From Amycolatopsis mongoliensis (GTDB lineage: Bacteria > Actinomycetota > Actinomycetes > Mycobacteriales > Pseudonocardiaceae): a stretch of DNA of 64,000 bases. Positions 40,131 through 52,959 of this stretch are shown here, one piece after another (positions within the stretch are counted from its first letter, which is position 1; every line of letters begins with the position of its first letter). Position numbers and translations under genes: made by a program. Under the pieces are notes generated by a model that did not search any database, had not been told where the DNA came from, and was given only the letters and a program-made list of their open reading frames with translations. The stretch lies in NCBI RefSeq assembly GCF_030285665.1, contig NZ_CP127295.1, positions 3,844,001 to 3,908,000 of the forward strand. Reading direction: 5' to 3'.

Positions 40131-40159
40131 AGGCGTACATCGCCAGCCAGATCGCGATG
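40131..40159. other. attL: displaced 3' end of trhA
   Basis: On the minus strand it reads the codons for IAIWLAMYA followed by TGA, the original chromosomal 3' end of trhA left behind by integration. It differs from attR by one base (40141 C, 52297 G), a synonymous change in an Ala codon. Confidence 0.85.
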
Positions 40160-40335
40160 ATCTGCTCCGGGGTTCTGCTCGACCTCGGCGTTCCTGCCTC
40201 TTAGGTGCGCTGAGCTGCGGTTTTGTCTGTCATCAGTTCTCGCGGGTGCTTGCCTCTTCCTGACCTCTGACGGCCTGGAGACGGCCTGGCGGACCCCGCC
40301 ACACCCTGCCCTGCATCCCGATACGAAGCCTCCAC

Positions 40336-40395
40336 ACGGCCGGTGGTGCCGGGTCAAGACACGCTTCATCGTCTTGACGCGGTGCTACCGGCCGT
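40336..40395. repeat. 25-bp imperfect inverted repeat near the left end
   Basis: Arm 40336-40360 (ACGGCCGGTGGTGCC, then GGGTCAAGAC) and arm 40371-40395 match at all but about four positions around a 10-base loop ACGCTTCATC. No T-run follows. Candidate single-strand origin, relaxase/Rep nick hairpin or terminator. Confidence 0.55.
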
Positions 40396-40659
40396 TGTCA
40401 CGATCGGGCGTCGGGATGGAGGAACTTAGCTTCGGTACGTAACAGACAGCGAGACGCGAACGACCCGAATGTCACCACCGCTTGTTGATCGTCGAGGGGG
40501 CCGAGCTTGCTGCAGGGGAGAGGTGTGCCGCCGTCGCGCGGCGCTGCGCCCGGTGACCCGCTGGCGGCCGCGCAGCCCGGCCGGCGGGCGGAGCGGAGCG
40601 GCAGCCCGCCGTGTCGGAAGCGGATGCGGCCGCCCAGGCGAGGGGCTACGTAGGCGACA

Positions 40660-40684
40660 GGCGCGCCGCCGCCGGCGGCGCGCC
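40660..40684. terminator. GC-only hairpin before the DUF6119 gene
   Basis: GGCGCGCCGCC at 40660-40670 pairs exactly with 40674-40684 around GCC, followed by CTTGATCCC. It lies 52 bases before the next start codon and may insulate the cargo gene from reading-through transcription. Confidence 0.45.
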
Positions 40685-40736
40685 CTTGATCCCATAGAGC
40701 CAAGTTCGGCAACCAGGACGTATGAAGAGGTGTGCA

Positions 40737-42479
40737 GTGCCCAAGCAACAATCAAAGTCGGCTAAGAGTTCACTTTACCGATTGCGTGTGAAATCTGACG
40801 CTAAGCTTGAGGCTGCCGTGCAAGACAAATATCTGAAATCCGAAGGCTTCACGTCGACTGCGACAAAAGTGGACGGCAGTGATTCTTTGTTGGTGTATGG
40901 TTCTATGTTGAACGATAATCCTGCATGGGTTGAGCATGCTCGAAGTGTTTCTTCTGTGCCCTTCAACTTGAGTAACCAGACGTCGGCTGGACTGCTTCTT
41001 GTAAGAATAGATGATTCTAACGATTACTGTTACGGGCTATCGTGGAGTATGGGTCACTTGTTAATCAATCCTGCGTATATTGACGATGGTTTCGGCTTGA
41101 GGTTTGCCCTTCGTCGTGCACGTCCAGAAGCGGTCTCTGCGCTGACTTCCCATGCGTTAGATACGGTACCTCGTACCGCGCGAACGTCGGTATTTGGCGG
41201 TGCTTCTCTCGGCTCTTTTGGCTTGGAGGAGATCGGCGAAATAGTGAGCAGGTTTGTTGGCAAGATTGAATCTAAAGGGCTTACGTGCGACATTAAGCCC
41301 GATGCTAAGAAGTCAAAGTCTAAGACCATGCGAAGTGTGAGTCGAAAGATAACGGTTCGTGGTGCAGATTCTCTCGGCATCCCTCTGGCGAAGCTTCCGG
41401 CAAACTTGCTGGCAGATCTTCGAAGTATTGATGACGTTGTTGAAAAAGAGAAGCCCAAGGCGCAGTTCGCGCACCTTGAGAATACTCAGCCTCTGAAGCC
41501 GGGAAACCGAAAGATACCTGCCCTAGAGAGTTTGCTTTCGGAAAACCTGAAACCTGACTCGGCGGGCATGTCGCTCTGCTGGCCTGCTGAGTTCGATAAC
41601 GAACCTGGCGAGATTGCTCGATATAAGGTCTTTGGGAGCGGTGCGACAAGGCCGCTGGTCTTTGAGGAGCTCGATCTATTTTCTTTAGTCGAGCCGCTTG
41701 AAAAGCTTGAACCTAAAGATCGATTATCTCGACTGCGGTCGATGAAGATTCAAGGTCAGGCGGAGGATGATTCGCCTCTGACGCGCCAAATATCTGGCGA
41801 TAAATGGATCTTGTATCAGACAAAGTTGGAAGGGGAATCTTATGTCTTCCATCGTGGTCGCTGGTACAACATCGGAGGCGCCTACCTTGAAATGTTGAAA
41901 TCGCACCTCGAACAAATCTTCGCCAATAAGAGCGATTTGGAGATTCCTGCATGGCCAAAGGAGAAAAAGCGTCGCAAGAACAGTGATGAAGAGTATTCAG
42001 GATGGGTCAATGAGGGGCGGTTCAACGATAACATATTCGGCGCGCAGGAAGGGTATGTGTCGCTGGATCGGAGACTAATCCACACCAGCCAGCATCCGCG
42101 AGGATTTGAAGCCTGTGATGTTCTAACTCCGGATGACCGACTTGTGCATGTGAAAAAACTCGACGGCTCGATTGCCGCTAGTCACCTCTTTAATCAAGCA
42201 AGCAACTCTGCGGAGGCTTTGGTGCGGCAGCCCGACGCGCTGGATAAGTTCCGTGAAAGAGTTACTGAAGTCAGTGGTGGGAAAAGGGTTATTTCGGATA
42301 ATTTCAGGCCAAAGGCGATCGTAATCGCATTTGCTTCAAAGGGTCGCAGTCCTGACGACCTATTTACCTTTTCGCAGGTCAGTCTTGTGCGGTGTGCTCA
42401 GAATATCGCGTCACTCGGCTTGGATTTAGAGGTGGCCTTCATCGAGGAGAGCGATGAAGTGGTCTCGTTCGAAGAGTAG
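40737..42479 (+). CDS. DUF6119 / TIGR04141 family sporadically distributed protein (cargo)
   Basis: The product has 580 residues from the GTG at 40737, chosen for the AAGAGG six bases upstream; the ATG at 40722 has no such site. Family features: a short basic N-terminus then LYRLRVKS; PAWVEHARSVSSVPFNLSNQ; the strand pair YGLSWSMGHLLINPAYIDDGFGLRFALRRA; an SFGLEEIGEIVSRFVG segment; a late KWILYQTKLEGESYVFHRGRWYNI; and EACDVLTPDDRLVHVKKLDG with ASHLFNQASNSAEAL. Members occur sporadically on mobile elements and in defence-rich regions, with no established biochemical activity. Codon use is far less GC-rich than the host (many AAA, GAT, TCT codons), a sign of recent transfer. It converges with the Nudix gene. 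Confidence 0.8.
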   Translation: MPKQQSKSAKSSLYRLRVKSDAKLEAAVQDKYLKSEGFTSTATKVDGSDSLLVYGSMLNDNPAWVEHARSVSSVPFNLSNQTSAGLLLVRIDDSNDYCYGLSWSMGHLLINPAYIDDGFGLRFALRRARPEAVSALTSHALDTVPRTARTSVFGGASLGSFGLEEIGEIVSRFVGKIESKGLTCDIKPDAKKSKSKTMRSVSRKITVRGADSLGIPLAKLPANLLADLRSIDDVVEKEKPKAQFAHLENTQPLKPGNRKIPALESLLSENLKPDSAGMSLCWPAEFDNEPGEIARYKVFGSGATRPLVFEELDLFSLVEPLEKLEPKDRLSRLRSMKIQGQAEDDSPLTRQISGDKWILYQTKLEGESYVFHRGRWYNIGGAYLEMLKSHLEQIFANKSDLEIPAWPKEKKRRKNSDEEYSGWVNEGRFNDNIFGAQEGYVSLDRRLIHTSQHPRGFEACDVLTPDDRLVHVKKLDGSIAASHLFNQASNSAEALVRQPDALDKFRERVTEVSGGKRVISDNFRPKAIVIAFASKGRSPDDLFTFSQVSLVRCAQNIASLGLDLEVAFIEESDEVVSFEE

Positions 42480-42492
42480 GTGCCTTTGTGGA

Positions 42493-42963
42493 TCACGTAA
42501 AGAAGACTTCCGAATTTCCGTTTATAGCGTGCGTGATGCGAAGACGAATGGCCGGATGAATATTCAGAGTATCCATTTTGTTTCGGTCAAACCATGCGAC
42601 TTCTCGACTTTCGCTACTGATGCGCAGGCTGCCGCCGATTGGGGTCGCGTGGAAACAGATAGAAAACTCTTGCCTGACTTCGCCGTCGTCGTAGGCGATG
42701 ACGTGCTTGGGGTCTGAGTACAGCCCGATCACTCCGGTAACCTCGCACTCGATCCCGGTTTCCTCGCGAACCTCCCGCACGGCTGCTTCGGCCAGTGTCT
42801 CGCCGAGTTCAAGCTGGCCACCCGGGATGGAGTACAGGTCGTTGTCGGTTCGCCGGATCATCAGGATTCGACCTTCGTCGTCTTGGATGAACGCCGATAC
42901 GGCCACTGCGATGCTGTTCGCCTTGGGGGCGTTCGGGTCGTTGTAGTAGTCGACTCGGGTCAT
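42493..42963 (-). CDS. Nudix hydrolase of the element
   Basis: The product has 156 residues from the ATG complement of 42961-42963. The Nudix box is complete: GGQLELGETLAEAAVREVRE then ETG (G-x5-E-x7-R-E-x2-E-E). It would hydrolyse a nucleoside-diphosphate derivative. Nudix genes recur beside the repressor in pSAM2-type elements, where they are thought to influence the integrated versus excised state. The start is only 8 bases after the XRE regulator's stop, so they form an operon. Its 3' end becomes AT-rich towards the DUF6119 cargo junction, with 13 bases between the two stops. Confidence 0.9.
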   Translation of the reverse strand: MTRVDYYNDPNAPKANSIAVAVSAFIQDDEGRILMIRRTDNDLYSIPGGQLELGETLAEAAVREVREETGIECEVTGVIGLYSDPKHVIAYDDGEVRQEFSICFHATPIGGSLRISSESREVAWFDRNKMDTLNIHPAIRLRITHAINGNSEVFFT

Positions 42964-42971
42964 GCTGCCTC

Positions 42972-43715
42972 CTAGAAGGTGGCCGGCTTGGCGAGGTTCC
43001 AGACGGATTCGAAGCTCTCCGAGTAGGTCTCGAAGAGGTCCCCGGCGGACAGTCTCCGCAGGTGGAGGGACGGGGCGTGGGCTCCTTGAAACCCGTACAC
43101 GTGCGTGTTGATGATCATCTCGTCGTCGAACCGGAAGATCGAGTTGTAGAGCGTCGTGTTGTGGAACCGCATCTCCACACCGTCGACTCCGACCAGCGGC
43201 CGGTAGGACGCCAACGCGTTGCGAATTCGTGCCGCGAGCGTCCCGTCGCCCAGTTGTTCTTCCTCGCCGCGCAGCGCGACGCTCTCCCCTTCGGGGTCTC
43301 CGAACACGAGGCGGATTCGAGCGCCGGCCGCTGCCTTGGCGGTCAGGTCCTTGATGAACCTCGGGCGTTCCACCAGGAACAACGCCGCGTGGACCAGGAT
43401 CTCAACGGTCTCCGAAGCTTCCTTGATCAACCGGTCCCACAGTTCGACGGGCACGGCGTTGCGGTGCGGGAAGACCTGCACGAGCTCGGCGGCGGCCGTC
43501 TCGGCCTTGCGCTCCGGGGCCACAGAGTCCGGCCACAGGTAGGTCTCTGACTCACGCGCCATGGCGGCGATCTTGTGCCGGTGCTTGGGGTAGGGCGTCC
43601 GGTTCTTGGTGATCCAGCGCTCGACGGTCTTCTGATCGACCCCGACAGCCTTGGCGACCTGCTCCAACGTCAGGCCGTTGCGCAGTAGCGCGTCACGCAG
43701 GCGTTCGTTCGGCAT
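42972..43715 (-). CDS. XRE-type regulator fused to a DUF5919 (PLD-like) domain
   Basis: The product has 247 residues from the ATG complement of 43713-43715, preceded by GAGGGGG; a GTG six bases earlier is the alternative. Residues ~12-35 form the helix-turn-helix (LTLEQVAKAVGVDQKTVERW). The C-terminal ~170 residues have the beta-alpha pattern of DUF5919/phospholipase-D-like folds (VEILVHAALFLVERP; ARIRLVFGDPEGESVALRG; MRFHNTTLYNSIFRFDDEMIINTHVYG), with one HxN..N motif but not a full HxK pair. It is likely the element's repressor; a row of GGGACGT repeats stands directly upstream. Confidence 0.85.
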   Translation of the reverse strand: MPNERLRDALLRNGLTLEQVAKAVGVDQKTVERWITKNRTPYPKHRHKIAAMARESETYLWPDSVAPERKAETAAAELVQVFPHRNAVPVELWDRLIKEASETVEILVHAALFLVERPRFIKDLTAKAAAGARIRLVFGDPEGESVALRGEEEQLGDGTLAARIRNALASYRPLVGVDGVEMRFHNTTLYNSIFRFDDEMIINTHVYGFQGAHAPSLHLRRLSAGDLFETYSESFESVWNLAKPATF

Positions 43716-43727
43716 CGCCACCCCCTC

Positions 43728-43799
43728 GGGACGTGTAGGGACGTCTTCGACGGTACCAGGGACGTCCCGAGATGTCCCGCCACGTGGTGATCACGTCCC
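43728..43799. promoter_or_regulatory. GGGACGT operator array upstream of the element's regulator
   Basis: GGGACGT at 43728-43734 and 43738-43744, the full palindrome GGGACGTCCC at 43759-43768, a near-copy GATGTCCC at 43771-43778 and ACGTCCC at 43793-43799. Five sites within 72 bases between two divergent transcription units fit autoregulation by the XRE protein and control of the rightward operon. Confidence 0.7.
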
Positions 43800-43868
43800 G
43801 CGTTTTGGCGGAGTCTGGGTGTCAGGTTGCCGGGGCAGGCCCGGTGCCAGGACACCGAGGAGGTAGGC

Positions 43869-43940
43869 GTGACCACTGAAACCACGGTTCGGCCGGCGGG
43901 CTTCGACAAGCGGGCGGTACCTCGCCGTTGTGCGGCGTAG
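43869..43940 (+). CDS. Possible 23-residue leader peptide
   Basis: GTG at 43869 with a perfect GGAGG eight bases before it gives MTTETTVRPAGFDKRAVPRR plus CAA before TAG. It is the first reading frame of the rightward operon, 12 bases before the next start. The strong ribosome site supports translation; function unknown. Confidence 0.45.
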   Translation: MTTETTVRPAGFDKRAVPRRCAA

Positions 43941-43952
43941 GCGCGGCGTGGC

Positions 43953-44177
43953 ATGCGCGACACGGTTCAGATCCACGTCACGGCTGATCTGCCGATTCGT
44001 GCCCGGGCGCTGACCTACGCAAACCGTGCGGAAGTCCGGTTCGGCAAGGCGTTCCCGGTTGTCCTGCTCGTGGACTCCGACGCCATCGCCGTACTGCGGA
44101 GGGAACTGGACAAGGTGAGCGCGGCATTGGACGCCGCTGCGGCACGAGGCGGAGAGCCGCCCGAAGAAACTAATTAA
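43953..44177 (+). CDS. Small element-encoded protein of unknown function
   Basis: The product has 74 residues from ATG 43953. It reads as a beta segment (VQIHVTADLPI), a helix, and RFGKAFPVVLLVDSDAIAVLRRELDKVSAALDAA with an acidic tail. No family recognised. Similar short ORFs commonly sit at this point of actinomycete elements. Confidence 0.6.
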   Translation: MRDTVQIHVTADLPIRARALTYANRAEVRFGKAFPVVLLVDSDAIAVLRRELDKVSAALDAAAARGGEPPEETN

Positions 44178-44199
44178 CCGACGACATAAGGGATTCAGC

Positions 44200-44652
44200 A
44201 TGGCTATCGACAAGGGACATCGGTTCGGTATCGACTTCGACGACGCGTTCACGCAGGGCTTGGTGATGGTGGGCGAGGTGTCGCCGGACAACGAGTACCA
44301 GTCGCGTGAGGACCGGGCCGCCAACCGTCCGGTGCGGCAGCGGGTCGACGAGATCACGGGTAAGCGGCAGTGGAAGGTCATGGTCACCGACCCGGCCGAG
44401 ACGCGGGCGAAGCGGGCGTCGTTCGAGATCACGCTTCTCGCCGATGTGCAGCCGGTGCCGACGACGTCGGAGGCGCTGCCCGGGATGCGGCCGATCGAGT
44501 TGGAGGGGCTGACGGCTGAGCCGAAGGTGGCTGGTCAGGGTGAGTTCAAGTACCAGTCCTACGTGTTCCGCGCGACGGGGTTCAAGCAGGCCGCCACGAA
44601 CGCGAAGCCGTCCCGGTCCGGTGGGTCCGGTGAGACGCCGAAGGCCGCGTGA
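44200..44652 (+). CDS. Pra-like activator of replication, integration and excision
   Basis: The product has 150 residues from ATG 44200. It follows the pattern of proteins annotated as plasmid replication, integration and excision activator: an N-terminal FDDAFTQGLVMVGEVSPDNEY, then a beta-rich core (RQWKVMVTDPAETRAKRASFEITLLADVQPVPT), MRPIELEGLTAEPKV and a C-terminal YVFRATGF. In pSAM2, Pra switches on the rep-xis-int operon when the repressor is lifted. It lies upstream of those genes here too. Assignment is from memory of family sequences. Confidence 0.7.
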   Translation: MAIDKGHRFGIDFDDAFTQGLVMVGEVSPDNEYQSREDRAANRPVRQRVDEITGKRQWKVMVTDPAETRAKRASFEITLLADVQPVPTTSEALPGMRPIELEGLTAEPKVAGQGEFKYQSYVFRATGFKQAATNAKPSRSGGSGETPKAA

Positions 44653-45155
44653 CAGGGATGGGCTTCCGCGAGCGGGTCGAGGCGTGGGAGCAGGCGTATC
44701 GGGACTACATGACCGCGTGGGAACACGGCCGCGCGGTCCTCTCGCCGATGAACGCCACCAACACGGCCAACGCGGCTCGGCGGGTGTCGCGGGCGTGGCA
44801 CGAGCTGGCGCAGACGCGCGGGCTGCCGTGGTGGTGCGTGGCCGCATTGGAGTCGGCGGCCGAAGGGTTCGCCGAACTGGCAAGGGATTGGGCAAGTGAA
44901 GCAGGACACGGCCGTGATGGACGGTCTGGGAGTGCGCTGGGCGGTGGGGCCGGGTATCGAGGTGACGGTGGAGGAGACCGGCCCGGGGCAGTCTTCTCCG
45001 CCGGTCCTGGTGCTGGCCGGCGCGCCCTTCGTGCTGACGCTGGTCCCTCCACAGGATCAGGAGACGTGGCCGGCCTGCGCGGCATTCCTTCGCCAGCTCC
45101 GCGACCACGCCGAGGAACTGGCGGCGCTGCTGGAAGCCCGCGCGGGGAGGCGTGA
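44649..45155 (+). CDS. Small element protein, C-terminal half probably frameshifted
   Basis: The GTG at 44649 overlaps the previous stop (GTGA). The first ~80 residues are coding-like and helical (FRERVEAWEQAYRDYMTAWEHGRAVLSP, then AWHELAQTRGLPWWCVAALE). From about residue 83 the frame lies wholly inside the next gene (44896-45171) and turns Gly/Arg-rich. A one-base shift near 44885 would end the protein at the TGA of 44897-44899, giving the same four-base GTGA overlap as its neighbours. Function unknown. Confidence 0.55.
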   Translation: MTGMGFRERVEAWEQAYRDYMTAWEHGRAVLSPMNATNTANAARRVSRAWHELAQTRGLPWWCVAALESAAEGFAELARDWASEAGHGRDGRSGSALGGGAGYRGDGGGDRPGAVFSAGPGAGRRALRADAGPSTGSGDVAGLRGIPSPAPRPRRGTGGAAGSPRGEA

Positions 45156-45171
45156 CGGTGCGCAGGGCTGA
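44896..45171 (+). CDS. Small element protein of unknown function
   Basis: The product has 91 residues from GTG 44896. It is coding-like: a hydrophobic beta segment (PPVLVLAGAPFVLTLVPP) followed by a helix (WPACAAFLRQLRDHAEELAALLEARA). It overlaps the reading frame that extends from 44649. No family recognised. Confidence 0.6.
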   Translation: MKQDTAVMDGLGVRWAVGPGIEVTVEETGPGQSSPPVLVLAGAPFVLTLVPPQDQETWPACAAFLRQLRDHAEELAALLEARAGRRDGAQG

Positions 45172-45403
45172 GCCGAAGACGCTGCGGGACGCCCACGAGG
45201 TTGTGATGGACCGCCGCCCACCGAACGACGCGAACCCCTCGGTGTGGCTGGCGTTCCGCCTGAGCAACGCGCGGCTCTATAAGGCCGTTGCGGACGTCGA
45301 CCGGGGGCATCACCACGAGGCGCTGTACTGGGCCGGATACGAGGAACGGAAAGCGGGTGAGATCTCGGCGAACCTTCAGGCGGAGGGCAAGCCTGCTGAC
45401 TAG
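45158..45403 (+). CDS. Small element protein, AMED_5909-like
   Basis: The product has 81 residues from GTG 45158, seven bases after GGGAGG; GTG 45152 is too close to that site. Sequence RDAHEVVMDRRPPNDANPSVW and HHHEALYWAGYEERKAGEI resembles a short family frequent in Pseudonocardiaceae elements (the name AMED_5909 is from memory). Its start overlaps the previous gene by 14 bases. Function unknown. Confidence 0.6.
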   Translation: MRRAEPKTLRDAHEVVMDRRPPNDANPSVWLAFRLSNARLYKAVADVDRGHHHEALYWAGYEERKAGEISANLQAEGKPAD

Positions 45404-45573
45404 TCGCATGTAGACGAGCAGAAAGTCAACAGTAATAGCGAAAAACGCACGCAGCGACGTGTGGCGATGAAACACGTCCTGTTGCGGGTGCGTGTGATCC
45501 GTAAGGCGCAGAAGCGGAACCTGGCTACCAACCTTGCCGCTCCTGCGCTGTCCACAACCAGCGGAAGTGAACA

Positions 45574-45738
45574 ATGACAACGCTAAACGATGACAACCGG
45601 CGAGCGTCAACGGGGGTCACCCGAACGCGCTGCGCCTCCTGCAAACGATTCGCCAAACTCTTGCCCCACGAGACCAAGTGCGCTCCCTGCTTGGGAATGC
45701 TGCCGCTGGACCTCCGTGTAAAGCGGGGTGATCGGTGA
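45574..45738 (+). CDS. 54-residue zinc-ribbon protein coupled to tra
   Basis: ATG 45574 to TGA 45738, with GGAAG upstream. It has two Cys pairs, CASCKRF and CAPCLGM, 13 residues apart: a zinc-ribbon/knuckle. The stop overlaps the ATG of the Tra gene (TGATG), indicating translational coupling. The 170 bases upstream (45404-45573) contain no gene and probably the promoter of the transfer operon. It may assist DNA binding by Tra (inference). Confidence 0.65.
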   Translation: MTTLNDDNRRASTGVTRTRCASCKRFAKLLPHETKCAPCLGMLPLDLRVKRGDR

Positions 45739-47291
45739 TGTCGGCAGGCTTCGCGGTAGTGGCCCTCGCTGGGCTGGGGCTCGGCGTGTGGGTGCTGCAC
45801 AAGATCGGCCGCGCGCTGGCGTCCGTGGTCGAAGGTCTGGCTGCGGCGGCCGTGGTGTTCGTAGCCCTGTGGTGGCTGTGCAAGGCCGTGGTGTGGATGC
45901 TCGCGCAGGTCGTGACCCGGTGGCGGACGAGTCTCGTCGTGGTCGCGGTCTACGCCTGGTGCGAGCTGTTCGGCTGGCTCTCCCTCGCACTGACCCTGGG
46001 CGGTATCGCGGCGGTCCTTGCGACGTGGTGGGCGATCGACGCTATCTCGTTCGACCAGTGGTGCTGGCGGCTCCTGCGCTCGTGGTGGGCACGGTGGGCG
46101 GTCTACGGGCGGAAGCTGCCGGAGTGGCTGCACGCCTGCGGTCTCTCGGTGCGGGATGAGGCGCTGCCGGTCGTGGTGAACGTCAACCTCGTCGGCCGTC
46201 GACGCGCGCTGTCCCGCTCGACGTCGAACCGACCGAACGCGCGGCTGCCGAAGGTGCTCGGCGTCCGCTCCGGTGCCTCGTGGGATGAGGTGCGAGTGGA
46301 GCTGGTGGCCGGCCAGAAGCCGGAGGACTTCGACGACGCCGCCCGGGCGCTGGCCGTCGCCCGGAAGGTCGCTCGTTGTCAGGTCCGCGAACTGGATCCC
46401 AACGTCGTCTCGATCGACTTCCAGCGCCGTGACCTGCTCGCCGGAGGTGTGACCGGCCCCCAGGTCCCGGATAGCGTCGACTCGACCGGCGTGGACCTGC
46501 GCAACGTCTGGGCAGGTCGGACCGAGTACGGGCGTGACTGGCGCGTCCCGCTGCTCGGCTCCGGCGCACACTGCCTGACCGCCGGTGCCTCCGGGGCAGG
46601 CAAGAACAGCGTCATGTGGTGCCCGCTGGTCGCGGCGGCCTCAGCGATCCGGGCCGGGGTGGTGCGCATGTCCGGCATCGACCCCAAGGGCATGGAACTC
46701 GCGTACGGGCGCGGCATCTTCTCCCGCTACGCGGTGGGCGGCAAGGACGCGGTCGAGCTGCTTGACGGCCTGGTGGAGGAGATGGAATCGCGCAAGCGCG
46801 CGTTCGCCGGTCGGCTGCGGACTATTCCGGTGTCGACGGAGTATCCGTTGGAGCTGCTGGAGTTCGACGAGATCGGCGCGCTGACGAAGTACACCGATCG
46901 CAAGACCCGTGAGGCCATTGTGGAGCGTGTCGCGCTGCTGACGACGCAAGGCCGGGCGCTGGGGATCTCGGTCCGCGGTTACGTCCAAGAGCCGACCAAA
47001 GACACCGTCCCGGTCCGGGAGCTGTTCACCCGGCGGGTGTGTCTGCGCGTGACGTCCAAGACGCACGTCGGGATGGTGCTCGGTGACGGCGCGTATGAGC
47101 GCGGTGCCTGGGCAAACCGAATCGGCGACTCAGAAGCGGGCGTGGGCTACGTGTGGGGCGAAGGCATCCGCGAGCCGCTGCGCATCCGGGCCGGGTGGGT
47201 CTCCGACTCCACGGTCAAGGCGCTGGAGGCGTACGTGACCAATGATGGTGTCGCGGATCTGCGCCACGGCGGTGAGGGGGTGGCCGCGTGA
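45738..47291 (+). CDS. traSA: FtsK/SpoIIIE-type conjugative DNA translocase (TraSA/TraB-like)
   Basis: The product has 517 residues from ATG 45738 (GTG 45735 is the alternative). Three to four N-terminal membrane helices are visible (SAGFAVVALAGLGLGVWVLH; AAAAVVFVALWWLCKAVVWM; LVVVAVYAWCELFGWLSLAL). The ATPase domain has a Walker A of GASGAGKNSVMW (Asn where Ser/Thr is usual, as in AICE relatives with GAGKGS) and a Walker B LELLEFDEIGAL; GISVRGYVQEPTKDTVPVRELF follows. It pumps double-stranded DNA between mycelial cells without a relaxase. The last four bases overlap the next start. Confidence 0.92.
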   Translation: MSAGFAVVALAGLGLGVWVLHKIGRALASVVEGLAAAAVVFVALWWLCKAVVWMLAQVVTRWRTSLVVVAVYAWCELFGWLSLALTLGGIAAVLATWWAIDAISFDQWCWRLLRSWWARWAVYGRKLPEWLHACGLSVRDEALPVVVNVNLVGRRRALSRSTSNRPNARLPKVLGVRSGASWDEVRVELVAGQKPEDFDDAARALAVARKVARCQVRELDPNVVSIDFQRRDLLAGGVTGPQVPDSVDSTGVDLRNVWAGRTEYGRDWRVPLLGSGAHCLTAGASGAGKNSVMWCPLVAAASAIRAGVVRMSGIDPKGMELAYGRGIFSRYAVGGKDAVELLDGLVEEMESRKRAFAGRLRTIPVSTEYPLELLEFDEIGALTKYTDRKTREAIVERVALLTTQGRALGISVRGYVQEPTKDTVPVRELFTRRVCLRVTSKTHVGMVLGDGAYERGAWANRIGDSEAGVGYVWGEGIREPLRIRAGWVSDSTVKALEAYVTNDGVADLRHGGEGVAA

Positions 47292-47674
47292 ACCGGCTGA
47301 TGATCTTCCTTGACGCGATCCGTGACCACCTCGACTCGCACCAGCTGCCGCCGGCTGCCTCGGTCGACGTCAACGCCTGGTCCAGCCCGATCACGGTCCA
47401 ACTGGACGTTGACGGCCTGACGGCGGTCGCTCGGGCGTTGCTGGTGTGGACGCAGACGCTCGAGGACGTTTCGGCGCGGCTGTGGCGGCTGGTCGACGGG
47501 CGGTGGGTGCATCTGTCGATCAGTGGCCGGACGCCGTGCGGCATCCCGGTCGTGGTGTTCGGGGTGGTGCGGTTCGAGCCGAGCACGTTCCCGGACCTCC
47601 CTGCCGGGGCAAAGCAGGACATGCCCGTCTATCTGCTGCGTGGCTGGTCGACGCCCGGGGAGGTGGCGGCCTGA
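47288..47674 (+). CDS. Element protein between tra and rep, unknown function
   Basis: The product has 128 residues; GTG 47288 overlaps the tra stop and its own stop overlaps the rep start (TGATG). Alternating beta strands (ITVQLDVDGLTAVARALLVW; WVHLSISGRTPCGIPVVVFGVV) and no known catalytic motif. The tight coupling on both sides indicates a role in transfer or replication. Confidence 0.65.
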   Translation: MNRLMIFLDAIRDHLDSHQLPPAASVDVNAWSSPITVQLDVDGLTAVARALLVWTQTLEDVSARLWRLVDGRWVHLSISGRTPCGIPVVVFGVVRFEPSTFPDLPAGAKQDMPVYLLRGWSTPGEVAA

Positions 47675-49278
47675 TGAGCGAGACACGCGCTGTACGGATG
47701 CGGGCCCCGCTGGCGGCTGATGTCATCCGGGCGACGGCGGAGAAGCACGGCGTCTGTGTCCGACCGTTCACGATGGAGGTCGGCGACACCGAGACCGGCG
47801 AACTCCGCTACGTCCCCGTGCCCTGCGGGTCCACTGTGGAGTCGGTGTGCTTGCCGTGTGCGCGGAAGGCGAAGGCGCTGCGGCAGGCCCAGTGCCGCGA
47901 GGGCTGGCACATGACGGAAGAACCCGTCCTCGCCGCCGAGCCGCCCTCGGAGGATCACAAGGAGCTGCTGACTTACCGGGCGGACCTGGTGGCGGCGTAT
48001 CGGGAGGTGGTCGAGCACGACCAGGCCGAGGCGGAGGAGTTGCGGGAGGAGGTCGCCGGGGTCGATGCGGAACTTCGGCAACTCGGGATGCGCGGTCGGC
48101 TGCCCGCCCTCGACGTGCCGACAAAGCGGGCGGTGAAGCGGTCGACCAAGCGGCGGCAGGATGCTCCGAACCTGCCTCGGCAGAAGGTCGCGAAGACCAC
48201 CGTGGGCCGGGAGTACGCGGGAAAGTTCCGCCCGTCCATGTTCGTGACCCTGACCTGCGACTCCTACGGCCCGGTCCGTGATGGCGCACCGATCGACCCG
48301 GCGCAGTACGACTACCGGCGGGCCGCTCGGGATGCGGTGCACTTCTCGGCGCTGGTGGACCGGTGGTGGCAGAACCTCCGCCGGGTCGTCGGCTGGGATG
48401 CCCAGTACTTCGCCACGGTCGAGCCGCAGAAGCGGACGGCTCCGCACCTGCACGCGGCGATCCGCGGTGCCATCCCGCACGACGTCATCCGTCAGGTCAC
48501 CGAAGCGACCTATCACCAGGTCTGGTGGCCCAACCACGACCAGATCGTCTACACGGAGCGGCTGCCGGTCTGGGACGGCGACACCCGGGCATTCCTCGAC
48601 CCGGACACCCGCGAACCGTTGACCAGCTGGGACGACGCCGTGGACCAGGTCGAGGACCCGGCGCACGTGGTGACCTTCGGGCAGCAGGTGCACTCGAAGG
48701 GCATCCTCGGCGGGACCGAAGAGGCCGGCCGCCACATCGGCTACCTCACGAAGTACCTGACCAAGTCCACCGGTGAAGTGGTCGAGGCGGACACCGCGCG
48801 GCTGCGGGATCACCACGACCGGCTGCACGCCGAACTGTCGGTCACGCCGTGCTCGCCGCGCTGCGCGGTCTGGCTGCTCTACGGCGTCCAGCCCAAGGGC
48901 GCGGGCAGCAAGACCACCCCCGGGCATTGCAAGGGACGCGCTCATCGGCGGACCACGCTCGGGCTGCCGGGGCGGCGGGTGCTGGTGTCGCGGAAGTGGT
49001 CCGGGAAGACGCTCGACGACCACAAGGCCGATCGCAAGGCGTTCGTTCAGCAGGCGTTGGCAGCGATCGGAATCGAGAAGCCACAACCGGACCCGGCCCG
49101 GCTGGTCTGGCGGAAGGTCGAACCGGGAGACCCACAGGTCCCGCCCCGGCCGCACCTGGTCATGCGGGCAATCGCGGAGCGGATCACGTGGAAAGCCGAG
49201 TACAACCGGGCGCTACTCGCCGCCGCCGGACCACCGGGGAGTGATCCAGAAACTTCGGCAACTCAGCTCGCAGCGTGA
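47674..49278 (+). CDS. repSA: Rolling-circle replication initiator (RepSA-like, HUH type)
   Basis: The product has 534 residues from ATG 47674. An N-terminal zinc-finger-like part (VPCGSTVESVCLPCARKAKA) precedes a coiled coil (~95-130). The HUH initiator motifs follow: motif I FVTLTCDSYGPV, motif II with His-x-His in TAPHLHAAIRG, and motif III with the tyrosine in GYLTKYLTKSTG. It nicks the element's double-strand origin and stays bound to the 5' end during replication. It lies directly before xis and int, the usual pSAM2 order. The origin is not recognised for certain. Confidence 0.9.
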   Translation: MSETRAVRMRAPLAADVIRATAEKHGVCVRPFTMEVGDTETGELRYVPVPCGSTVESVCLPCARKAKALRQAQCREGWHMTEEPVLAAEPPSEDHKELLTYRADLVAAYREVVEHDQAEAEELREEVAGVDAELRQLGMRGRLPALDVPTKRAVKRSTKRRQDAPNLPRQKVAKTTVGREYAGKFRPSMFVTLTCDSYGPVRDGAPIDPAQYDYRRAARDAVHFSALVDRWWQNLRRVVGWDAQYFATVEPQKRTAPHLHAAIRGAIPHDVIRQVTEATYHQVWWPNHDQIVYTERLPVWDGDTRAFLDPDTREPLTSWDDAVDQVEDPAHVVTFGQQVHSKGILGGTEEAGRHIGYLTKYLTKSTGEVVEADTARLRDHHDRLHAELSVTPCSPRCAVWLLYGVQPKGAGSKTTPGHCKGRAHRRTTLGLPGRRVLVSRKWSGKTLDDHKADRKAFVQQALAAIGIEKPQPDPARLVWRKVEPGDPQVPPRPHLVMRAIAERITWKAEYNRALLAAAGPPGSDPETSATQLAA

Positions 49279-49291
49279 CAAGGGGGAGCAC

Positions 49292-49477
49292 ATGAACAAC
49301 GTCCACAGCATCGAACGCCTCTGGTCCGTCGAGGACGTATCCGACTACCTCGGCGTCCCGGTCAAGACCCTCTACCAGTGGAAATGGCGCGGTGAGGGGC
49401 CGCCGGTGAAGAAGATCGGCCGGCACCTGCGCTACAACCCGGCCGCCGTGCGGGCCTGGGCTACCGAAGCCGCATAA
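49292..49477 (+). CDS. xis: Excisionase (MerR-like helix-turn-helix)
   Basis: The product has 61 residues from ATG 49292, preceded by AGGGGGAG. The whole protein is one winged-helix DNA-binding unit: LWSVEDVSDYLGVPVKTLYQ, then WKWRGEGPPVKKIGRHLRYN and a terminal VRAW helix. It bends DNA at the attachment arms and drives excision by the integrase, 25 bases downstream. Confidence 0.92.
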   Translation: MNNVHSIERLWSVEDVSDYLGVPVKTLYQWKWRGEGPPVKKIGRHLRYNPAAVRAWATEAA

Positions 49478-49502
49478 CCAGTTTCGAGAAAGGAGAATCC
49501 AC

Positions 49503-50738
49503 GTGGGACATATTCAGGACCGGTGGTACCGCCAGGCGCGGCACCCGGAAACCGGACGGCTGCTCTTCAACGACAAGGACAAGCCGGTTATGGAGAGGTC
49601 CGAGCTGTATGGCATCGGGCTGCGGTACAAGGTGCGGTATCTCGACCCGGACAACAACGAACGTTCGAAGTCGTTCGCGGACAAGCAGAAGAAGCGCGCC
49701 GAGAACTTCCTCATCGAGGTCGAGTCGGACAAGCGGGAGGGCAAGTACGTCGACCCGCAGTCCGGGCGAGTGCTCTTCTCCGTTGTCGCGGATCGGTGGG
49801 TCGCGGCGCAGACCTTCGACCACACGACGCGAGAGCGGGTGATCAGCCGTCTCGCCAACCACCTCAAGCCGTTCTTCAAGGCGAAGACCATCGGGGCGGT
49901 CAAGCCCAGTGACGTCCAAGCCTGGCTCCGCTGGCTCCAGGATCGCGGGGTGAGCACGCGCTCGCGGGTCCTGTACTTCACCCACCTCGTGTCCATCCTC
50001 AGCTTCGCGAAGGAGGACAAGCTCATCGTGAGCAACCCGGCTCAAGCGTCGAGCGTGACTCGGCCCCGGGCGGATCTACGGCAGGTGCAGCCCTGGCGTC
50101 CGGAGCGGGCGCAAGCCGTCTTGAAGGCGCTGCCCGTCCGGTTCAAGCCGGTCGTCCGGATTCCCGCCGGGATCGGGCTGCGGCAGGGTGAGGTGTTCGG
50201 GTTCTCCCTGGACGACGTCGACCGAGAGCGGAACGTCGCGCAGATCGAGCGGCAGGTCCGGATCGTCGACAACGTCCTGTGCTTCGCTCCGCCGAAGCGG
50301 GGCAAGACGCGAGAGGTGCCGATGGGTGGTGAGCTGCTGGCCGCTCTGGATGAGTACGCCGAGCAGTTCCCGGCGACCGAGATCACGCTCCCGTGGGTCC
50401 ACCCCGAGGGCAAGCCGGTCACCGTGAAGCTGCTGATGGTCGACTACGACGGGCTGCCGTTCCGACGCGGTGGCTTTCGGTTGAGCGTTTGGCTACCCGC
50501 GCTCAAGAAGGCCGGCATCGAGAAGCCGACCCGGGCGGACGGGATGCACGCGCTCCGTCACCTCTACGCCTCGGTCCTGCTCGACGCGGGCGAGTCCATT
50601 AAGGCGCTGTCCAGCTACCTCGGCCACTCGGACCCGGGCTTCACGCTGCGCGTCTACACGCACCTGCTCCCGACCAGCCACGAGCGGACACGAAAGGCCG
50701 TAGATTGCTTGCTTAGTCACATCGGGCAAACTTGTTGA
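49503..50738 (+). CDS. int: Tyrosine-recombinase integrase of the element
   Basis: The product has 411 residues from GTG 49503, with AAAGGAGA upstream. An N-terminal arm-binding part (~1-65, YKVRYLDPDNNERSKSFADK) and a SAM-like core-binding part precede the catalytic domain. Catalytic residues: Arg in AGIGLRQGEVFG, the H-x-L-R-H box in MHALRHLYASVLLDAG, a second His in YLGHSD, and the nucleophilic Tyr in LRVYTHLLP. It recombines the attP with the 3' end of trhA. Tyrosine integrases with a tRNA target are the rule in this family; here the target is protein-coding. Confidence 0.95.
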   Translation: MGHIQDRWYRQARHPETGRLLFNDKDKPVMERSELYGIGLRYKVRYLDPDNNERSKSFADKQKKRAENFLIEVESDKREGKYVDPQSGRVLFSVVADRWVAAQTFDHTTRERVISRLANHLKPFFKAKTIGAVKPSDVQAWLRWLQDRGVSTRSRVLYFTHLVSILSFAKEDKLIVSNPAQASSVTRPRADLRQVQPWRPERAQAVLKALPVRFKPVVRIPAGIGLRQGEVFGFSLDDVDRERNVAQIERQVRIVDNVLCFAPPKRGKTREVPMGGELLAALDEYAEQFPATEITLPWVHPEGKPVTVKLLMVDYDGLPFRRGGFRLSVWLPALKKAGIEKPTRADGMHALRHLYASVLLDAGESIKALSSYLGHSDPGFTLRVYTHLLPTSHERTRKAVDCLLSHIGQTC

Positions 50739-50779
50739 TATGCTGGGTAGCCATATCGCCTAACGGATAGCGTGGCAAC

Positions 50780-51373
50780 GTGTCGTCTGCTGCTCATAGC
50801 ACCTGGGTCGCGCAGCGTAGAGCGCGTATCGCGGAGCTGGTTGGTGCCCATCAGGCAGTAGGTGGGAGTCGGCCAGGGCGACGATGGAAGACGACGCAAA
50901 TAAATTGGTCTATAGTTCTACGTCTAGCTGGTGAGTTCCAAGCGTACTGTAGGGATCTTCATGATCAATCCGTCGACCATTTTGTCTCTGTTGTGGCCGC
51001 CGGTAACGTTCCGCTGGAATCAGTTCTCCGCGTTCAGTTGACCGCCAATCGGTACCTTGATAAGGGAAATGCAACCTCCGGTAATCTAGGGTCGGATTTC
51101 TTGAAAATCGGCCTCCAGCTATGGCCGGCTATTTATATGGGATTTCCCCAGGCGCGCGGCTGGAACAGGGAGCTTGACCAGATTGTTCACGTTAGAAACG
51201 CAATTGCGCACGTCGACGAGGTCAAACTTGCGGCGCTTAGGGCTGATGGATATTCCATCAATCTTACCCAGTTGAAGAAGTCAGTGAAGACGATAGAAGC
51301 CCTCGTGGCCGCTATGGACGATGTTGTTGCAGACTACCTGAATCAGCTCTTGGGAGGAGGTCGACCATGGTGA
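50780..51373 (+). CDS. HEPN-domain protein with RX4H motif (probable RNase; cargo)
   Basis: The product has 197 residues from GTG 50780. It is predicted nearly all helical. The key sequence is QIVHVRNAIAHVDE: Arg139 and His144 with four residues between, the R-x4-6-H catalytic motif of HEPN ribonucleases; the upstream LTANRYLDKGNATSGNLGSDF loop and the C-terminal helix (TQLKKSVKTIEALVAAMDDVV) suit RiboL-PSP/MAE-type HEPN proteins. The last seven bases overlap the start of the nuclease gene. Low-GC codons contrast with int just upstream. It could cut tRNA or mRNA as an abortive defence effector (inference). Confidence 0.7.
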   Translation: MSSAAHSTWVAQRRARIAELVGAHQAVGGSRPGRRWKTTQINWSIVLRLAGEFQAYCRDLHDQSVDHFVSVVAAGNVPLESVLRVQLTANRYLDKGNATSGNLGSDFLKIGLQLWPAIYMGFPQARGWNRELDQIVHVRNAIAHVDEVKLAALRADGYSINLTQLKKSVKTIEALVAAMDDVVADYLNQLLGGGRPW

Positions 51374-52224
51374 AAAGAGAGGATTCTGACGGCTCTCAGT
51401 TGAGCCCCGAGATTGGCGACAGGGTCGTCGTCCCCTGGGGGCTGGACGAAATCGAGGGCGTTGTTGTCAACAAGTACGGGTCCTCGCTTAGTGAGCGAGT
51501 GGTTGTCAGTATTGCCCTGTCGGAAGTAAATGAGACCGAAGAAATCGCTTTTCCGGTCGACTCTGTTCGCTTAATCTCGACCGAGAATGTCCGATCTGCT
51601 GGGAGTTGGCGCAGTCAGGCTTCGTATCTGCGAAACTTTGCGGACGCATTCCGTCGCGCGATTCCTAATGCAGAGGTTGAACTCGAGCCGCTAAGTTCGA
51701 GTGGTAAGCGTGCCGACATGATTGCCACTCTAAAGGGAGGGCAACGACTGTTGATCGAGACTAAAACCGGTAGGTCGGGCCGGTCGGTTGACGTGAGGTT
51801 GGCTATAGCGCAGCTAACCGCTTATCTTCAACTTGAATCCGACCGCAGTTATGGCCTTGTTGTCACGTCTTTTGAGTTGCCAGATGCGATAATTCGTAAA
51901 TATTCGTCACTGGCTGCATCTAGGAATATTTGGGTGACGTTCTGGCGTGGTCGAGAGGATGACTTGCGTTTGAAGAGTCTTCTGGGCGAGATAGTTAAGA
52001 GTCACAACTTGGCGAACTTGAGTGCAAGAGACCGTGCGGTGGTGCCAAATGCATCTGGCGGCTGGGACGTGGTCGCTCCCGCGCGTAACACCGTCAGCTA
52101 TCACTCGACGACTCAGCGTGATGCGGTGGAGAAGGCTCGTGAGTTGGCTTTGCAGTCCGGCGGAGAAGTCATCATTCAGGAGCGCAGCGGAGCCGTGCGA
52201 CGTAGGTCGCAACGCAGAGACTGA
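51367..52224 (+). CDS. PD-(D/E)XK nuclease-like protein fused to a DUF2188 domain (cargo)
   Basis: The product has 285 residues from ATG 51367. Residues ~15-75 form a small beta-barrel-like region (GDRVVVPWGLDEIEGVVVNK). Residues ~85-210 have the restriction-nuclease core: Asp117 in RADMIATL, then Glu131-x-Lys133 in LLIETKTG, and Gln149/Tyr153 in AIAQLTAYLQL, the QxxxY motif of RecB/Cas4-like nucleases. Residues ~230-278 are a DUF2188 domain (GGWDVVAPARNTVSYHST; DAVEKARELALQSGGEVII). The pair with the upstream HEPN gene is translationally coupled. Codon use is low-GC. A DNA-cutting partner or sensor of a two-gene defence unit is the best inference. Confidence 0.75.
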   Translation: MVKREDSDGSQLSPEIGDRVVVPWGLDEIEGVVVNKYGSSLSERVVVSIALSEVNETEEIAFPVDSVRLISTENVRSAGSWRSQASYLRNFADAFRRAIPNAEVELEPLSSSGKRADMIATLKGGQRLLIETKTGRSGRSVDVRLAIAQLTAYLQLESDRSYGLVVTSFELPDAIIRKYSSLAASRNIWVTFWRGREDDLRLKSLLGEIVKSHNLANLSARDRAVVPNASGGWDVVAPARNTVSYHSTTQRDAVEKARELALQSGGEVIIQERSGAVRRRSQRRD

Positions 52225-52284
52225 AGGAGTTAGCCTGACGGCCTGGCGGCGGCCTGAGGAAGATCCACAAGGGTAAAACCGCAG

Positions 52285-52959
52285 CTAGGCGTACATGGCC
52301 AGCCAGATCGCGATGTAGTGCGAGACCGCCGCAAGCACGGTGCAAGCGTGGAAGTACTCGTGGTACCCGAAGGTCTCCGGCCAGTGATTGGGCCACTTGA
52401 CGGCGTAGAACACCGCCCCGAGCGTGTAGAACACCCCGCCCACGCACAGCAGCACCAGAGCCGCCACGCCGGCGTGCGTCAGGAGCTCGGGGAACACGAA
52501 CACCGCGACCCAGCCGAGTGCGATGTAGATCGGCACCCCGAGCCACCGCGGCGCGTTCGGCCACAGCATCTTCAACGCCACGCCGAGAACGGCGCCGCCC
52601 CAGACGATGGACAGGATCACGTACCCCGTCGGCTTGGACATCGCCAGCAGGGTGAACGGGGTGTACGTGCCCGCGATGAACAGGAAGATCATCGAGTGGT
52701 CGGCGCGCTTCATCCACTTGTACGCGCGCGGGCTCCACAGGCGGCGGTGGTACAGCGCGCTCACGCCGAACAACCCGAGGATCGTCAGGCCGTACACCGA
52801 CGTCGCCAGTGCCGCGATCGGGGACACTGTGGACGCGGCCAGGCTGATCAGCACCGCCGCTGCCGCGAGGGCGCCGAAGAACGTCCAGAAGTGGATGTGG
52901 CCCCGCAGCCGTGGGCGGAGATCCACTACGGGCTCGGGTGGTTCCGTCGTCAGGCTCAC
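52285..52959 (-). CDS. trhA: Hemolysin III / PAQR family membrane protein; integration target of the element
   Basis: The product has 224 residues from the GTG complement of 52957-52959. Seven membrane helices are visible; family motifs are the first-helix GHIHFWTFFGALAAAAVLI, ALYHRRLWSP, the metal-site Asp in KRADHSMIFLFIAGTYTPF, and the two late His residues in FGYHEYFHACTVLAAVSHY. TrhA proteins influence membrane-lipid homeostasis; the haemolysin name is historical. It is divergent from the Z-prenyl transferase (Rv1085c/Rv1086 order). Its last nine codons form attR. Confidence 0.92.
   Translation of the reverse strand: MSLTTEPPEPVVDLRPRLRGHIHFWTFFGALAAAAVLISLAASTVSPIAALATSVYGLTILGLFGVSALYHRRLWSPRAYKWMKRADHSMIFLFIAGTYTPFTLLAMSKPTGYVILSIVWGGAVLGVALKMLWPNAPRWLGVPIYIALGWVAVFVFPELLTHAGVAALVLLCVGGVFYTLGAVFYAVKWPNHWPETFGYHEYFHACTVLAAVSHYIAIWLAMYA
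52287..52315. other. attR inside the 3' end of trhA
   Basis: It covers the last nine trhA codons; the element supplies the stop codon TAG (complement of 52285-52287), directly followed by its 12-base inverted repeat at 52275-52286. The gene therefore stays intact after integration. Confidence 0.85.

Follow-up and report, generated by a model that had tools for sequence, protein, structure and literature searches.

A HEPN gene and its Tudor/KOW-barrel partner gene on an Amycolatopsis integrative element: a candidate toxin-antitoxin-type module

What do two overlapping genes of low GC content, one for a HEPN protein and one for a protein with a nuclease domain, do together at the right end of an actinomycete integrative element? 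The question arises from a stretch of 64,000 nucleotides of the Amycolatopsis mongoliensis genome, called here the window, to which all coordinates refer. A preliminary description had proposed that HEPN and a nuclease-DUF2188 protein form a coupled pair. The HEPN gene (50780-51373, +) begins with GTG, a start whose position is the same or nearby in full-length relatives, and encodes 197 residues; the partner gene (51367-52224, +) begins with ATG and encodes 285 residues. The genes overlap by 7 nt (51367-51373, ATGGTGA), starting with the ATG of the partner and ending with the TGA stop codon of the HEPN gene. Both are low in GC (53.5% and 54.5%, GC3 of 0.53 and 0.57) compared with the integrase gene (65.6%, GC3 0.88) and the replication gene (69.8%, GC3 0.83). 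Gene boundaries, overlap, base composition, and location are thus as first described, and so are the catalytic-type residues of both proteins that are discussed below.

The pair sits between int and attR, immediately within the right-hand att site of an element that extends from 40131 to 52315. Pfam matches within the element comprise RepSA (2.2e-102), FtsK_SpoIIIE (6.2e-9), an excisionase-like HTH_17 (5.7e-13), and Phage_integrase (1.4e-13), the last in the tyrosine integrase encoded at 49503-50738 (+), whose gene stops 41 nt short of the HEPN gene. The 29-nt direct repeats attL (40131-40159) and attR (52287-52315) are identical at 28 of 29 positions. Because genes for RepSA, FtsK-type transfer, an excisionase, and a tyrosine integrase occur together with att repeats, the element is classed as an AICE of the pSAM2 type. 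The attR repeat lies within the 3' end of a gene (52285-52959, -) that we take to be trhA/hemolysin III-like, and of 11 further same-genus loci, 9 show a match of 25 to 36 nt to the att site at the 3' end of their copy of this gene. The AICE takes the 3' terminus of a protein-coding gene as its att site; ARAGORN detects no tRNA genes in the window. At the left end of the AICE, a second cargo gene of low GC3 (0.52; 40722-42479, +) matches TIGR04141/DUF6119 (E 1.5e-98 and 1.4e-105) and no PADLOC model at E <= 1e-5. Unusual cargo is present, then, at both ends of the AICE.

The HEPN protein is a predicted metal-independent RNase toxin of the RiboL-PSP-like type. It contains the R-x4-6-H motif of the HEPN superfamily as R139-N-x-x-A-H144 (51194-51211, +), a site predicted to be catalytic from its conservation in an alignment designated A4. 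In A4, which consists of 66 HEPN sequences, window included, and omits P0002 (the window's own shorter ORF), P0018 (motif region lost in an internal gap), the broken or fragmentary L106-L109, and three plasmid HEPNs, R139 is present in 66/66 sequences and N140 and H144 in 65/66 each. The sole exception at H144, P0009, is apparently cut short. A second motif, FQxxxRDLH (residues 53-61; 50936-50962, +), is nearly as invariant in the same alignment: F53, Q54, and R58 are each found in all 66 sequences, L60 in 65, and H61 in 62. Against PF18735 (HEPN_RiboL-PSP), the window HEPN scores 25.7 bits, under the curated cut-off of 28.4, and PF18735 matches 29 of the 66 HEPN relatives at E <= 1e-3 (best 1.8e-10). 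By this test, the window HEPN belongs to a group that is related to PF18735 and is not filed as a member of it. PDB sequence profiles gave nothing meaningful for the HEPN, Foldseek for the HEPN gave no match at E <= 0.001, and no useful match to either protein came from NCBIfam. The C-terminus of the HEPN tends to close with Pro-Trp (P in 48/66 and W in 57/66 at those columns of A4). A mere by-product of the overlapping start codon was considered as an explanation and rejected, given that PW persists when the partner start lies 10-19 nt downstream. Since many loci with a non-overlapping partner start still end in PW, it looks like a feature of the protein, possibly a docking or packing motif.

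The partner protein is composed of three parts. Residues ~12 to 73 (51400-51585, +), overlooked in the preliminary description, form a separate domain, a small Tudor/KOW-like barrel of the SH3 fold. In Pfam searches at E <= 0.1, the barrels of relatives match ProQ_C (10/35), KOW2_Spt5 (6/35), and PriA_3'BD (13/35), and PDB sequence profiles give weak matches of the barrel to Spt5 (E 0.05-0.1). The barrel is followed by a PD-(D/E)XK nuclease domain (residues ~79 to 216; 51601-52014, +), which has both the fold and the D...ExK residues of that superfamily (D117, E131, K133), together with Q149 and Y153. The structure model of the partner, built with 12 sequences, has a pLDDT of 77. The C-terminal DUF2188 domain (residues 225-280; 52039-52206, +) scores over its Pfam cut-off (E 1.3e-10) and matches PADLOC PDC-S16 (2.6e-12).

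How often the two genes occur together was surveyed with a scan of genome contigs that used a HEPN pattern only, a single motif from 9 relatives, and thus samples HEPNs bearing that motif. The scan gave 53 genome loci, which become 56 with 3 plasmid loci; its loci span Actinomycetota, Planctomycetota, Armatimonadota, and Pseudomonadota, and there is in addition one fragment at a contig end that bears the title Deltaproteobacteria. An intact HEPN gene, defined as a single HMM match that begins by model position 8 and reaches at least position 174 of 196, is present in 50 of the 56, and in 50/50 of these a barrel gene lies directly downstream, though the set contains near-copies, so that such counts are not counts of independent cases or events. 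The pair is thus an adjacent, co-inherited two-gene unit of the kind expected for a type II toxin-antitoxin system, and the two genes being mostly apart, the result that the preliminary description had named as telling against it, was not seen. Among the six loci with a non-intact HEPN, the barrel is kept in L082 and L106 and not seen in L074, L108, L109, and L107, the last at a contig end; clear cases of a broken HEPN with its barrel kept number just two, and errors of assembly may account for frameshifts in draft sequences. No barrel match accompanies four HEPN matches from outside the 56 that are distant or fragmentary (L053, L124, L127, and L128). At L049, L125, and L126, also outside the 56, the HEPN gene is damaged and the barrel match is itself partial, so that both genes are decaying there.

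Other tests of the pairing agree. With HMMs built without the tested locus and without sequences at least 50% identical, the adjacent ORF is the top match among ~241 ORFs per locus in 49/50 loci; in the fiftieth, L099, the better match is a second barrel within the same ORF. Cross-group HMMs alone recover 40/56 and 24/56 partners. The distance matrices of HEPN and barrel correlate (r 0.69 over 52 pairs, against a maximum of 0.14 in 1000 permutations), which suggests that the two have a shared history. In G004, HEPN, barrel, and a degenerate nuclease are fused in a single ORF. At L050 (13100-14333; G014, on a contig shared with L079), the HEPN gene is flanked by two barrel genes, the second of them immediately upstream. 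Searches for relatives found none in viral contigs (queries A2 and P0003), in phage records (HEPN), or in plasmids (partner).

The seven-base overlap had been taken to imply a fixed stoichiometry. The translation signals argue otherwise. The Shine-Dalgarno sequence of the partner, GGGAGGAGG (51352-51360, +), lies within the 3' end of the HEPN gene and has a duplex energy of -12.6 kcal/mol, versus -3.3 kcal/mol at the HEPN start. Over 46 loci, with equal search spans and the best start within the span taken for each gene (true starts may differ), the signal is stronger for the partner than for the HEPN in 37 (Wilcoxon p 5e-7), the means being -8.7 and -3.8 kcal/mol; HEPN starts barely exceed random spans (-2.6 kcal/mol, p 0.03). 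The 46 loci are the 56 plus the window, minus L074, L083, L085, L097, and L105-L108 (no assigned partner start), L109, and the near-copies L060 and L071. A fixed stoichiometry was rejected on the basis of this asymmetry, which fits a partner that is produced in excess.

On balance, and with modest confidence, we think it probable that the pair is a translationally coupled module of the toxin-antitoxin type, carried as cargo by mobile elements, in which a HEPN RNase toxin is restrained by a Tudor-type antitoxin or sensor. The HEPN would be an endoribonuclease, presumably toxic, that acts through its conserved R-x4-H site. The Tudor/KOW barrel of the second gene would bind the HEPN, either directly or via RNA, and so keep it inactive, and would free it on meeting a trigger. 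Where a PD-(D/E)XK domain and, more rarely, DUF2188 stand behind the barrel, as in the window and a few other actinobacteria, this arm may contact and cut foreign DNA, and recognition of DNA and release of the RNase would thereby be united in one complex. The pair may also act in defense against phages. One point of organization speaks against restraint: the HEPN gene comes first, unlike the order in several type II dyads, which, according to PMC3710099, place the antitoxin 5'.

A different role for the barrel deserves the closest comparison. The usual ligands of Tudor/KOW barrels are nucleic acids or peptides, and the barrel may consequently target the RNase rather than inhibit it. Its part would then be to target or activate: as an RNA-binding module of the KOW/ProQ type, it would take the HEPN to RNA, ribosomes, or RNA polymerase; both proteins would be needed and the HEPN alone would be harmless. 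The nucleic-acid-related SH3 folds against which the relatives' barrels score are in line with such a role, and obligate pairing and the natural fusion fit it equally well. However, a harmless HEPN should sometimes remain as an intact orphan, and 0/50 do, while the stronger ribosome-binding site of the partner better suits an inhibitor made in excess. The lack of intact orphans among the 50 and the ribosome-binding-site asymmetry together favor restraint over targeting, and we regard a targeting subunit as rather unlikely.

The preliminary description had instead made the HEPN and the PD-(D/E)XK-DUF2188 nuclease the working parts of a two-effector abortive defense. That proposal is supported in part; the conserved partner, though, is the barrel, and the nuclease is optional. 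Among 54 loci labeled by hand from the partner translations, with barrel alone as the default label, the partner consists of the barrel alone in 36 and carries an intact-looking nuclease in 5, a degenerate nuclease in 4, and another extension in 9. The D/E/K residues are intact in the window, S. carnea (L057), M. rosaria (L058), Parafrankia (L061), and Blastococcus (L068); the nuclease is degenerate in L059, L060, L104, and the fused G004, and the HEPN beside each of these keeps its R and H. DUF2188 is rarer still, matching 2 of 35 Pfam-scanned partners; the alignment shows it in the partner of the window and in that of L057, and database relatives P0019-P0021 also carry it. On a quick tree, where the window, L057, and P0003 make up a starred clade, the nuclease label amounts to 2 changes, a count that does not separate one gain from several losses. 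In six planctomycete partners (L076, L084, L087, L088, L093, L098), the barrel is followed by a C-terminal extension of ~100 residues that by eye is unlike PD-(D/E)XK. Judged from these architectures, the conserved part of the partner across loci is the barrel, not the nuclease, and the nuclease may be an arm added in the window's lineage.

Several observations speak for two effectors nonetheless. The window and S. carnea have both effectors with intact motifs, and close relatives of the two proteins, P0001 (86%) and P0020 (85%), each lie on a contig of 145,007 bases, probably the same one. In addition, the pair closes an Hma/Mza-like operon in Blastococcus G194 (L045, 101-10374; L142, 7617-12150), where HmaC-, MzaB-, MzaD-, and MzaC-like genes are followed at the end by the HEPN and barrel-nuclease genes, with putative DNA methyltransferase genes, recognized by motif and by eye, further upstream; this defense operon speaks for the restrained-toxin reading as well. 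Yet a nuclease that looks intact in so few labeled loci, is missing from most, and has decayed beside HEPNs that keep R and H cannot be the general working partner. A pair defined as HEPN plus nuclease was rejected for this reason, and we consider a two-effector defense improbable.

The pair is sporadic. At E <= 0.001, matches occur in 9/397 genomes of the order and 8/396 of the phylum, counts to which the window genome itself and some fragmentary or distant matches contribute. The S. carnea pair (L057) is also in an AICE, whose RepSA and integrase are 65% and 49% identical to those of the window's element, and is placed differently relative to int. In L066, L067, and L092, tyrosine integrases lie no more than ~50 nt upstream of the pair, and three plasmid records carry it. 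AICEs are thereby shown to carry HEPN-barrel modules as cargo. Of 187 neighbor proteins drawn, 101 were scanned: no listed PADLOC model matches more than one, and Pfam families among the 25 best listed are mostly metabolic, so that membership in defense islands is not general. The metabolic neighbors would suit an RNA-processing or stress-regulation pair with no role in conflict, but the sporadic presence, AICE and plasmid carriage, low GC, and several damaged copies suit a mobile conflict module and make such a housekeeping function very improbable.

Pairing with a barrel does not extend to PF18735 HEPNs at large. A PF18735 search of 200 genomes from the order marks 12 places in 10 of them, and with ~1.5 kb of flank taken at each, the barrel HMM matches only at the window; at L137 (G022), a barrel-like ORF can be seen by eye that the HMM missed. 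With 11/12 places lacking a barrel match, the pairing appears to be a property of this HEPN subgroup only. The window genome itself has another RiboL-PSP HEPN of 310 residues (L131, G000:C1:568862-569437), which by eye has a possible barrel-like C-terminal tail and adjoins a gene matching NsnA and PD-T4-2_A, and a further PF18735 match (L140, G000:C1:3094251-3094772).

Restraint of the HEPN by its barrel might be part of a wider scheme, which we put forward tentatively. In a family of conflict modules, the barrel would serve as both antitoxin and invader sensor gating the HEPN, and lineage-specific C-terminal arms (PD-(D/E)XK, DUF2188, the planctomycete-type extension) would tune the sensing; the heteromer of the window would attack RNA through the HEPN and DNA through PD-(D/E)XK. 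Whatever the outcome for this scheme, a group of HEPN RNases has a fixed small-barrel partner, a testable two-gene unit in four phyla that is not in the literature searched, and its natural series (barrel alone, barrel with intact nuclease, barrel with dead nuclease, all fused) can be used to study the restraint and release of a HEPN toxin.

As the preliminary description had supposed, PMC text searches, a scope outside which bioRxiv preprints and most subscription papers fall, found no description of the HEPN-barrel pair, and no paper combining HEPN with RiboL-PSP or HEPN with DUF2188. No description of the pair occurs in the passages considered from PMC3710099, PMC12839542, PMC8195603, PMC9519451, and PMC10952713. 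The main text of PMC3710099 contains neither "Tudor" nor "KOW", and "SH3" once, for another family.

Several known systems can be compared with the pair. In PMC10952713, validated systems with a PF18735 HEPN include PD-T4-2, PD-T4-5, PD-T7-3, and ApeA. PD-T4-2, an E. coli anti-T4 system (PADLOC PD-T4-2_A and PD-T4-2_B) whose deletion in the native strain raises T4 plating (PMC9519451), has such a HEPN, but its other gene encodes a DUF262 protein (both points from PMC10952713) rather than a Tudor/KOW barrel. Neither protein of the window pair matches DUF262 in Pfam or PADLOC, the genes flanking the pair are int before the HEPN and an opposite-strand gene after the partner, and PD-T4-2_B is weakly matched by just 1/66 HEPN relatives (E 0.0059). 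The partner resembles Can2/Card1-type CARF nucleases and type IIS restriction enzymes in fold only; where Can2/Card1-type nucleases have CARF, it has a Tudor/KOW barrel in front, and Pfam finds no CARF domain in it. In MNT-HEPN (MntA-HepT), the antitoxin is a nucleotidyltransferase, whereas the partner here is an SH3-fold barrel-nuclease-DUF2188 protein; in addition, MNT is nearly always 5' of HEPN according to PMC3710099, and in the window pair the HEPN comes first. The Ribo L-PSP-HEPN family of Anantharaman et al. (2013, PMC3710099) shares its Pfam name with the HEPN family considered here; in Table 1 of that paper, its members are described as fused to endoRNase L-PSP and as sharing an operon with ParB, while the window HEPN is instead paired with a barrel.
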